A DNA stretch of 41,156 nucleotides from assembly GCA_026398065.1 (NCBI GenBank), contig JAPLTR010000432.1, forward strand, positions 1 to 41,156, given 5' to 3'. This DNA is from Verrucomicrobiota bacterium. Lineage in GTDB: Bacteria > Verrucomicrobiota > Verrucomicrobiia > Opitutales > Opitutaceae. Below are positions 30,236-39,100 of this stretch, piece after piece; positions within the stretch are counted from its first letter, which is position 1, and each line of letters begins with the position of its first letter. The position numbers and the translations under genes are program-made. The notes under the pieces were generated by a model. That model saw only the letters and a list, made by a program, of their open reading frames with translations, was not told the DNA's origin and searched no databases.

Positions 30236-31558
30236 ATGCGTCCCTCCCCCCTGCTCATCGCGCTTTCGCTGGCGGTCAACACCGCCCTGCTCGGCGCGCT
30301 CACCTGGCGCCCCTCGCTCGCCCCGCCGGCCTTCCGCGAGTTCTTCTCCCGCTCACCCTCCGCCGAATCCCTTGCCGCCGAGGCCCGTGCCCGCGATTTG
30401 GCCGCCGCCCAGGCCGCCGCCGACTCCGCCGCCCGCGCCGCAGCCGCGAACGCCCAACTCTGGTCCGCCCTCCAGTCCGACGATCCTCGCACGCTCATCG
30501 CGCGCCTCCGCGCCGCCGGCTTTCCGCCCACGGTCGTGCGCTTCGCCGTCGATGCCCAGCTCACCGCCCGGCTCAACGCCCGGTTCCGGCAACACCTCCG
30601 TGGTGTGCCGGAGCGGCCCTATTGGAAGCTCGACGCGTTCGCGGGCAGTCCCTTCACCGGCCCTTCCCTCTGGCTGGAGTACGACAAATTCTATCGCGCC
30701 TACAGCCAGCAGAAACGGGAGGCCCTGACCGACGACTGGCTGGCCGGCGCCGGCGAGGCCAGCCCCGAGCAGCGCCGCCGCTACGGCGATCTGCCCAAGG
30801 CCAAGATCGACCTCATCGAACGGATCAACGCCGACTATGACGAGATGTCCGCCCGGGTGCGCGAGTCCATGCAGGGCATCGCGCTCATCGAAGACCGCAA
30901 AAAATTCGATCTCCTCAACCGCGAGCGCCGCGCCGATCTCGCCGCCGCCCTCACGCCCGAGGAATTGGAAAACTATGACATGCGCAACTCCTCCGTCGCC
31001 TTCGGCCGGACGAACGCCCTCACGCTCATGGATGCCACGGAGGCGGAGTTCCGCGCCATCTATTTCGCGCAAAAAACCATGGACGACCGCCTGCGCCTGG
31101 AGCGTGCCTCCACCGGCGATCTCTCCCCCGCCACACGCACCGCCGCCCAGGACCAGTTCACCCAAGAGCTCCGCACCGCCCTCGGCGAGGCCCGCTACGC
31201 TGACTACCAGCGCTCCTCCAGCGGCGAGTTCCAGCAGCTCCACCGTCTCTCCCAGCGCGAGAATCTCCCCGTGGACACCGCGCTGCGCGCCTTCGCCCTC
31301 CGCGACCGCGTCTCCGCCGAGTCGACCCGCATCGTCAACGACCCCGCGCAGACTTCCGACCAAAAGCGCGCGGCCCTTCAGGTCCTCGCACAAAACACCC
31401 GCGCCCAGTTGCTCGCCTCCCTCGGCTCCACCGTCGGCCCCGCCTACCTTGAAACCGCGAACCGCTGGCTGATCCCCGTCGAACGCGGCAACGCCGTGAC
31501 CTTCGGCTTCGACAACGCCCGAAAGCTCCAGCCCATCCCCGGCTCGCCCACACCCTGA
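30236..31558 (+). CDS. Array paralog 2 (type A1)
   Basis: MRPSPLLIALSLAVNTALLGALTW anchor; TLIARLRAAGFPPTVVRFAV; RPYWK; RRADLAAALTPEELENYDMRNSS; DATEAEFRAIYFAQKTMDDRL. Confidence 0.85.
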   Translation: MRPSPLLIALSLAVNTALLGALTWRPSLAPPAFREFFSRSPSAESLAAEARARDLAAAQAAADSAARAAAANAQLWSALQSDDPRTLIARLRAAGFPPTVVRFAVDAQLTARLNARFRQHLRGVPERPYWKLDAFAGSPFTGPSLWLEYDKFYRAYSQQKREALTDDWLAGAGEASPEQRRRYGDLPKAKIDLIERINADYDEMSARVRESMQGIALIEDRKKFDLLNRERRADLAAALTPEELENYDMRNSSVAFGRTNALTLMDATEAEFRAIYFAQKTMDDRLRLERASTGDLSPATRTAAQDQFTQELRTALGEARYADYQRSSSGEFQQLHRLSQRENLPVDTALRAFALRDRVSAESTRIVNDPAQTSDQKRAALQVLAQNTRAQLLASLGSTVGPAYLETANRWLIPVERGNAVTFGFDNARKLQPIPGSPTP

Positions 31559-31570
31559 GCGCCGACCACG

Positions 31571-36536: not shown

Positions 36537-37889
36537 ATGAAACTGCCCACGCTCCTCCTCGCCGTCTCCCTCGGTGGCAATGCCGCCCTCCTCGGTTTCT
36601 TCGTCCTCCGTCCCGCCGCCGCCCCGCCGGCCTGGCGCGATTTTTTTATCAGCGATGAGCAACGTGCGGCCGCCCTCGCGGCCGAAACCAAGGCGTCTCA
36701 GGCGCGCGCCGCCGCGCAGGCGAAGGCCGCCGCGACGCAGCGCGCCAGCGTGTGGTCCACCCTCCAGGCCGACGACCTCAAGACCCTCATCGCCCGCCTC
36801 CGCGCCGCCGGATTTTCGCCGGTGCTCATCCGTGCCATCGTCAACGCGCGCCTCGAGGCCACGTTCTCCGCGCGCATGAACGAGCTCGTCGGCTCCATCG
36901 ACGTCCCCTTCTGGAAGCCCGACGCCCTCAACTCCTATAACAACTCGAAGTTCTACGAGACCCAGTCCCAGATCTACCGCGACCGCGCCAAGGCCCTGCG
37001 CGAAATCCTCGGCGACGACTACTTCGCCGGCAGCGCCGGCGAAGCCTCCGCCGAACAGCGCCGCAAATACGGCGACCTCCCCAAGTCCAAGATCGATCTC
37101 GTCGAGCGCATCGCCGAGGACTACGCCGAGATGATCTCCCAGGTGAAGGCCGCCACCCAGGGCATCATGCTGCCCGAGGACCGCGAAAAACTCGCCCTGC
37201 TCGAGCGCGAGAAGCGCGCCGATCTCGCCGCCATTCTCACCCCCGCCGAGCTCGAGGACTACGAGATGCGCAACTCCACCATCACGATGCGCCTCCGCCA
37301 GGCCCTCACGATTTTCGACGCCACCGCCGAGGAGTACCGCGCCATCTACCGGATCCAGCAGCCGTTCGCCGACATCCTCTATCCCAATAACACCGGGATG
37401 ACCGTCATCACCGCCGAGATGTCCCGCCAGCGCAACGAGGCCAACAAGCAGATCGCCGAACAGATCAAGGCCGCCCTCGGCGAGCAGCGCTATGCCGACT
37501 ACGCCCGGGCCAGCGACTACGAATACCAAAACCTCTACCGTCTCGCCCAGACCGCCAACCTCTCCACCGACACAGTCAATCGCGCCTACGACCTCAAGGC
37601 CAGCGCTGTCCAGGAGTCCCAACGCATCAACGACGCGAAGCTCGGCGCCGATGCCCGCACCGCCGCCCTCCAGGCCCTCGTCGCCGACACCAAGACCAAG
37701 CTCATCGCGAGTCTCGGCAGCACCCTGGCCGACAACTACATGAAGAACCTCTCGTGGCTCAACGCCCTCGAGCGCGGCTACGCCGTCAGCATCTCCCCCG
37801 ACGGACGGTCGACGAGCTTCCTGAGTGCGCCCCGCTCCACTCCTCCGCCCACGCCAGCCCCCACGCCCGCTCCCACCCCGGCGAAATGA
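36537..37889 (+). CDS. Array paralog 6 (type A3)
   Basis: MKLPTLLLAVSLGGNAALLGFFVL anchor; TLIARLRAAGFSPVLIRAIV; VPFWK; KRADLAAILTPAELEDYEMRNST; DATAEEYRAIYRIQQPFADIL; TPAPTPAPTPAK tail. Confidence 0.87.
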   Translation: MKLPTLLLAVSLGGNAALLGFFVLRPAAAPPAWRDFFISDEQRAAALAAETKASQARAAAQAKAAATQRASVWSTLQADDLKTLIARLRAAGFSPVLIRAIVNARLEATFSARMNELVGSIDVPFWKPDALNSYNNSKFYETQSQIYRDRAKALREILGDDYFAGSAGEASAEQRRKYGDLPKSKIDLVERIAEDYAEMISQVKAATQGIMLPEDREKLALLEREKRADLAAILTPAELEDYEMRNSTITMRLRQALTIFDATAEEYRAIYRIQQPFADILYPNNTGMTVITAEMSRQRNEANKQIAEQIKAALGEQRYADYARASDYEYQNLYRLAQTANLSTDTVNRAYDLKASAVQESQRINDAKLGADARTAALQALVADTKTKLIASLGSTLADNYMKNLSWLNALERGYAVSISPDGRSTSFLSAPRSTPPPTPAPTPAPTPAK

Positions 37890-39100
37890 TCCCCCCGATG
37901 AAACCGCTCACCACCATTCTGCTCGCCGCCTCCCTCGTGGCCAACGCCGCGCTCGCCTACGCCGCCTTCAGCGGCAGCGCCCGCCTGTCCGACGAAGCCG
38001 CCGCCGCGTCCGCCGCCGTCGAGGCCGCGAAAAAAGCCCCGCGATCCTCCGGCCCCGCGCCGGTGGATCCCAAGACCTGGTCCAGCCTGGAAACGAAAGA
38101 CCTGACCGCGCTCGCCGCCAATCTCCGCGAGGCCGGCTTCCCGAAGGACGTCATCCGCGCCATGATCAGCGGCCTCCTCAGCGAGCAGTTCGCCGCCCGG
38201 CGCCGCGCGCTCGATCCCGACTCCGCCAACCGCCCCTATTGGAAGGACCGCGCGCCCGACCTGAAGCTCCAGCTCGCGCAGTACCAGCTCTTCCGCGAAC
38301 AGGAAAAGGCTCTCCGCGCTATCCTCGGCGCCGACGCCCGCAACACCGATCCCCTCGCGCAGGCCCGCGCCCGCTCCATGTTCGGCAATCTGCCCCCGGA
38401 AAAACTCGATGCGGCCCAGCTCATCATCGACGAATTCAACCAGAAGCAGACCGAGGCCTACTACACGAAGGGCAGCATGACCATGGCCGACCAACGGCAG
38501 ATCGAGCGCGACCAGCGCACCGCTCTCGCCGCCATCCTCTCGCCCGCCGAACTCGAGGAATACGATCTCCGCAGCAGCAACACCGGCCGCACCATGCGCC
38601 GCGAACTCACGTCGTTCGCCCCCACCGAGGAGGAGTTCCGGGCGATTTACAAACTGCGCCAGCCCTTCGAGGAAAAGTACAACTACGACAGCGGCATCCC
38701 TAGCCAGGCGACGATGAACGAGCGCATGAACGCGCAGAAACAACTGATGACCGACATCAAGAACCTCCTGTCGCCCGAACGCGCCGCGGAATACGAACGC
38801 GCCAGTGACTTCAATTTCCAGCGCGCCAGCCAGCTCGTCGCCCGCCTCGAGCTCCCGCCGGAAACCACCACCACCCTCTGGAACACCCAGAAAGAATTCG
38901 AGAAACGCCGCAACGACATCTACTCGTCCGGTGCCTCCCTCTCTGCGGAGGAGCGCACGCGCCAGCTCACCGCCCTGCAGCAGGAGGCCATCGCGAAGCT
39001 TACCCCGATTTTGGGCAGCGCCAGCCGAGTCAAGTCCTACGAGTCCTACGGCGGCCAGTGGCTCACCAGCCTCGTCCCCCGCCCGCGCCCGCCGCAGTAA
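37886..39100 (+). CDS. Array paralog 7 (type B3)
   Basis: ATGA overlap with A3 stop (alternative start 37898); MKPLTTILLAASLVANAALAYAAF anchor; ALAANLREAGFPKDVIRAMI; RPYWK; QRTALAAILSPAELEEYDLRSSN; PTEEEFRAIYKLRQPFEEKY. Confidence 0.87.
   Translation: MIPPMKPLTTILLAASLVANAALAYAAFSGSARLSDEAAAASAAVEAAKKAPRSSGPAPVDPKTWSSLETKDLTALAANLREAGFPKDVIRAMISGLLSEQFAARRRALDPDSANRPYWKDRAPDLKLQLAQYQLFREQEKALRAILGADARNTDPLAQARARSMFGNLPPEKLDAAQLIIDEFNQKQTEAYYTKGSMTMADQRQIERDQRTALAAILSPAELEEYDLRSSNTGRTMRRELTSFAPTEEEFRAIYKLRQPFEEKYNYDSGIPSQATMNERMNAQKQLMTDIKNLLSPERAAEYERASDFNFQRASQLVARLELPPETTTTLWNTQKEFEKRRNDIYSSGASLSAEERTRQLTALQQEAIAKLTPILGSASRVKSYESYGGQWLTSLVPRPRPPQ

Follow-up and report, generated by a model that had tools for sequence, protein, structure and literature searches.

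The array and its surroundings

The stretch of DNA analysed here, referred to as the window, comprises all 41,156 bases of contig C460, which belongs to an Opitutaceae assembly of 7.2 Mb in 1,004 contigs that is about 90% complete. Gene calling and translation place six intact paralogs on its plus strand, strictly alternating between two types in the order A1-B1-A2-B2-A3-B3, and all six open reading frames listed in an earlier note on this DNA, with the same alternation, are present. A1 (30236-31558, 440 aa) is followed after 12 nt by B1 (31571-32785, 404 aa), A2 (34006-35325, 439 aa) is followed after 25 nt by B2 (35351-36517, 388 aa), and A3 (36537-37889, 450 aa) overlaps by 4 nt with B3 (37886-39100, 404 aa, or 400 aa from the ATG at 37898). 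The description of partners as 0-25 nt apart or overlapping is accurate within each pair; the pairs themselves, however, are unevenly packed, with an intergenic stretch of 1,220 nt (32786-34005) separating B1 from A2. This stretch holds copies of a dispersed intergenic repeat, located at 33090-33745 (AAATCCAACCAAATCCAAGTAAATCCAACC, with GTGGGAGGGGCTTTACGCCCC nearby) and found at about 140 sites genome-wide, the repeat core giving 140 matches in the genome versus 0 with a reversed control. The sequence blocks that had been quoted as typical of A and B are real, with small exceptions in A3, which reads KAATQGI in place of the R of the pattern, in A1, whose C-terminal end is WLIPVERG, and in B1 (ATESEFVALFRLQRPF).

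The count of six paralogs was correct as far as it went, but overlooked three further members, X, C1 and C2, that bring the total on the contig to nine; a whole-genome search returns these nine places only, and no tenth member. X (27575-29047, plus strand, 490 aa) is a single-copy paralog of a distinct clade, whose orthologs in related genomes adjoin EamA genes. Between X and A1 lies an EamA transporter gene on the minus strand (29132-30121); in related genomes the array is flanked by this gene, its left anchor, and by a PPK2 gene on the other side. Downstream of B3 on the plus strand, C1 (39202-40357) is a damaged family member whose membrane segment and body are in separate frames and which lacks about 26 codons, corresponding to the first repeat, relative to its ortholog in genome G003; it is probably a decaying copy, which points to turnover of genes within the array. 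C2 (40374-41156, plus strand) is truncated by the contig end after 261 codons, and its ortholog in genome G005 has PPK2 as the next gene. In the host genome the PPK2 gene starts at the very edge of a different contig, C818, with its first bases, a position that fits the array-PPK2 order of relatives and falls short of proof. Further upstream, between a hydrolase gene and X, a 1,107-aa open reading frame on the minus strand (24008-27331) has He_PIG and DUF5122 matches, and is missing from the corresponding spot in locus L043 of genome G473.

Gene trees of the two subclasses

For six genes split three and three, strict alternation has a 1 in 10 chance of arising by combinatorics alone, and the evidential weight therefore falls on gene trees and on other genomes. 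Adjacent A and B genes that were each other's closest relatives, or a lack of separation between A and B, would both speak against duplication of a two-gene unit, the proposal made in the earlier note, and neither pattern was found. A and B each form one group in a 33-row tree, with 100/99 support for each, and in a 134-row tree SH-aLRT is 99 for clade A and 97 for clade B. Forcing adjacent A and B genes to be sisters is rejected by the AU test on the 33-row tree for all three window pairs (p-AU 6e-75, 1.3e-5 and 6e-69). Judged by these trees, the alternation in the window is not down to chance similarity.

The branching order of the two subclasses is also the same. In the 33-row tree both the A genes and the B genes resolve as (pair 1, (pair 2, (pair 3, L043, L092))), with fork supports of 98/95 and 99/96 on the A side and of 94/85 and 99/98 on the B side. 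The agreement, together with the separate A and B clades, bears out the pair-wise duplication proposed earlier, and copying of the A-B unit as a whole is very probably what the trees record. The age implied for these duplications, by contrast, proved too young. Because pair 3 groups with L043 and L092, it is taken as the ortholog of the single pair in G473 and in G476, which are Opitutaceae like the window genome but of another genus, A3 being orthologous to the sole A gene of each. A recent origin of all three pairs within one genome is thus ruled out, and the expansion as it now stands goes back further; on this topology, pairs 1 and 2 branched off earlier and did not arise as recent copies of pair 3.

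A comparable history is visible in genome G438, which also carries three A-B pairs in the same alternation, on a contig too short to reveal the anchors. The A genes of its first two pairs are sisters and its B genes likewise, while its third pair groups with G437 in both the A and B trees, with weaker support in the B tree. Across 22 cognate pairs, quartet agreement between the A-tree and the B-tree is 0.878, as against 0.33 for random labels, which reach a maximum of 0.51. Among 72 within-genome re-pairings, none surpasses the true pairing in topology, and only one, a symmetric exchange between two G438 pairs, equals it. When branch lengths are compared instead, the true pairing ranks 9th of 72, a rank attributed to the long A1 and B2 branches (unequal rates) and a real limit on the claim of congruence. 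A branch-length Mantel test returned r 0.69, a value equalled in 0 of 10,000 permutations, but it was set aside for the question of cognate pairing, and topology used, because of that same rank. The congruence of partner gene trees expected of co-duplicating partners, for which the note had proposed a test, is therefore seen in topology and less well in branch lengths.

Substitution rates add little on the paralogs themselves. Values of dN close to dS, as for B1 versus B3 (dN 0.59, dS 0.65), are uninformative, given an extreme GC3 and a probable saturation of dS. Measured against L043, the dN/dS values of A3 (0.26/0.64) and B3 (0.30/0.66) are in line with purifying selection.

Pairing across Opitutaceae

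A profile based on the family members in the window detects relatives in 124 of 252 Opitutaceae genomes, spread over 30 of 49 genera; across 20 further families of the same order it detects none. In 390 genomes drawn from the whole phylum, the matches are nearly all from Opitutaceae, with one clear outsider (G369) and a few weak matches, and a scan with a single protein returned one relative, again an Opitutaceae bacterium; the family is almost confined to Opitutaceae. It has no significant or above-cut-off match in Pfam, NCBIfam, PADLOC or PHROGs, and names that appear below threshold, such as DDE_Tnp_ISL3 and galE, are weak and were taken as chance. Searches of the literature found no account of the family, or of sigma-factor extensions in Verrucomicrobia.

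Loci in other genomes were gathered with the family profile and not by adjacency, and genes were classed as A or B in 18 genomes only, giving 23 A and 22 B. In this set B lies directly downstream of A in 22 of 22 A genes with readable downstream DNA, and A lies directly upstream of B for 22 of 22 B genes, so that the obligate adjacency expected of co-duplicating partners is found without exception. Gaps between partners range from -4 to 210 nt, with the 4-nt overlap recurring in four pairs. At the site between EamA and PPK2, two pairs are present in G031 and one each in G473 (at L043) and G033; there are none in G006, G007 and G002, which belong to the genus of the window genome and in which the readable EamA-PPK2 junction lacks both A and B. 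With the number of pairs varying from 0 to 2 at this one site, pairs are evidently gained and lost as units. Same-genus genomes also contain, near EamA and on the strand opposite to it, a relative named Z, a protein of about 300 aa with an N-terminal membrane helix (L068 7043-7963, L050 5100-6014 and others), none of which was found in the window genome.

Alternation is not peculiar to A and B. Other subclasses of the family alternate in arrays of five genes (G028) and four genes (G036), both of which split cleanly by parity, and in a four-gene array in G012 that splits by parity on the tree and not by distance. Arrays in G216 and G228 do not alternate, G595 and G596 each have one A-B pair plus additional single genes, and G595 holds a single-gene tandem duplicate; these exceptions in G216, G228 and G595 make pair-wise copying a frequent event and not a family-wide rule.

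The joint duplication of two genes ranks with the stronger hints of protein partnership that can be had from sequence only, and here it has occurred more than once, in a family without any annotation. The obligate adjacency of A and B in 18 genomes, together with their co-duplication, makes a physical A-B partnership somewhat probable. Its main rival is that pair-wise copying is a by-product of recombination, as in an existing A-B tandem unequal crossing-over among A copies or among B copies is bound to duplicate A-B units, with no interaction of the two proteins required. In its favour, the arrays are tandem, on a single strand and at a single locus, DNA identity between paralogs reaches 65-77% in stretches of 300 nt, and the single-gene tandem duplicate in G595 indicates that duplication is frequent. 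A pure by-product would nevertheless leave unexplained why no solitary A or B of these clades is seen in 18 genomes, why same-genus genomes without one are without both, and why arrays of the form AAB or ABB are not seen, and the 4-nt overlaps suggest translational coupling. On this balance the by-product account, taken as a sufficient explanation, is rather unlikely. If A and B are partners, A3-B3 would be a concrete candidate pair for binding tests, as it corresponds to the single pair in related genomes.

Architecture and possible function of the family

Each protein begins with a membrane helix, in which, among 115 proteins, Asn15 is conserved in 99% and Ser11 in 93%. Asn residues conserved inside membrane helices are known to promote the association of helices with one another. 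AlphaFold2 models of A3 and B3, computed from 12 sequences, are all-helical (mean pLDDT 79.9 for A3 and 83.5 for B3); in A3 the helix past the membrane segment is longer, and its C terminus has a short beta hairpin that B3 lacks. Three C-terminal units of 70-80 residues are mutually alignable with hhalign (P 1.6e-6 for units 1 and 3, 3.8e-5 for units 1 and 2, and 1.8e-5 for units 2 and 3), and a fourth, N-terminal unit aligns more weakly with these three in profile comparison. The presumed periplasmic domain is predicted to be all-helical, with three to four tandem repeats. Foldseek searches of the PDB with the full-length AlphaFold2 models of A3 and B3 found nothing of similar fold with confidence, the best E values being 0.39 and 1.1, and a sequence search of the PDB gave nothing significant.

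The orientation of the helix is suggested by a single relative. On contig C55 of G031, a 651-codon frame joins an ECF sigma factor (Sigma70_r2 plus r4) to a full family member, with the family's membrane motif SLAANAL retained at the junction, and a second family member lies 31 nt 3' of the fusion. In the 134-row tree this fusion and its neighbour group with the two alternating G036 subclasses, with modest support (88 and 95). Because the sigma factor is joined through the family's own helix, the N terminus of the family would be cytoplasmic and the repeats periplasmic. The fusion is one case in 252 genomes, and sensing is for that reason a weak extrapolation from it; Sigma70 region 2 and region 4 are absent from A, B and X and present only in this distant relative. 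An orphan Verrucomicrobiota envelope family is nonetheless linked in this way to membrane-bound sigma factors, a signalling arrangement that is seemingly common in Opitutaceae. ECF sigma factors with C-terminal extensions are reviewed in PMC8103513, in the available part of which the family is not described as an extension domain; the G031 relative is one such protein, unlike A and B, which are without a sigma domain.

A hetero-complex, its membrane topology and a sensing role may each be inferred from these observations. A and B would be two ancient subclasses of one inner-membrane-anchored Opitutaceae family, each anchored by the single N-terminal helix that it retains, its N terminus lying in the cytoplasm and its helical-repeat domain in the periplasm. 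The A-B pair would be the unit of inheritance, loss and amplification, the last being explained most simply if tandem copies undergo unequal crossing-over at the one site from EamA to PPK2. Each A would bind its own B in the membrane, partly by way of the polar face that Ser and Asn give the membrane helices, and amplified pairs would diverge into parallel complexes. That such a complex acts as a membrane-anchored periplasmic sensor or scaffold is a tentative suggestion, held at somewhat less than even likelihood, and the reading as a whole, of an Opitutaceae-specific anchored pair forming a hetero-complex with that role, has about an even chance of being right. Pairs of two distinct co-encoded partner proteins that expand as a unit are familiar from the mycobacterial PE/PPE proteins, which are exported via type VII secretion. 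The likeness to A-B lies in how the partner gene pair expands as a unit, and no sequence relation is claimed; A and B, unlike PE and PPE, are membrane-anchored and paralogous to each other, and PE/PPE use type VII secretion.

An alternative casts the proteins as ATP-independent chaperones of the periplasm, or as stress adaptors, working like Spy, CpxP and ZraP of the LTXXQ family, with several LTxxQ-like hairpins per chain. Like those proteins, A and B would be periplasmic and built of small helical repeats with an LTxxQ-like turn, and their charged, all-helical repeats, the L(T/S)PxEL-type turn with which helices begin, as in LTPAELEDY, and the near absence of cysteine are all consistent with such a role. 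A and B differ, however, in their length of about 400-450 aa, their three to four repeats and their retained anchor, and the Pfam model for LTXXQ (PF07813) does not match them: eight members are without a match at E <= 1, and a whole-genome PF07813 search at the same threshold has no match on C460. At the level of sequence, membership in that family was rejected on these grounds. The full-length models have no significant PDB fold match to favour the chaperone account, and kinship to the LTPxQ-like domain found in sigma factors of Opitutaceae is unsupported (hhalign probability 0.6%, not significant). The literature on LTXXQ, like that on PE/PPE pairs, held nothing of further use for the family. 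A chaperone role as such is unlikely, and a chaperone-like reading is possible as a statement of how the proteins might work and not of what they are related to. It is very unlikely that the family consists of membrane-bound anti-sigma or co-sigma proteins regulating transcription directly, an idea suggested by the member whose own helix joins it to an ECF sigma factor and by the wealth of Opitutaceae ECF sigma factors that combine a membrane segment with interchangeable C-terminal domains, since the few residues preceding the A and B membrane helix leave no room for a cytoplasmic anti-sigma domain and sigma genes adjoining A-B arrays were not seen.

Returning to the anchored A-B pair, a bolder version can be framed that is distinctly improbable as it stands. 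The pairs may be an undescribed, lineage-restricted class of two-subunit, membrane-anchored periplasmic receptors with a new helical-repeat fold, with cassettes of such pairs amplified or lost at one chromosomal site so that strains differ in their sensing repertoires, and in one lineage the first subunit would bear its own sigma factor, forming a direct receptor from membrane to transcription.

Loci from several Opitutaceae genomes (L075 and L129-L147) encode many ECF sigma factors in which a membrane segment follows an FMSxTK motif. The C-terminal domains of these proteins are exchangeable, resembling TonB_C, LTPxQ-type helices, Sel1 repeats or a serpin, the names other than sigma having been assigned by eye.
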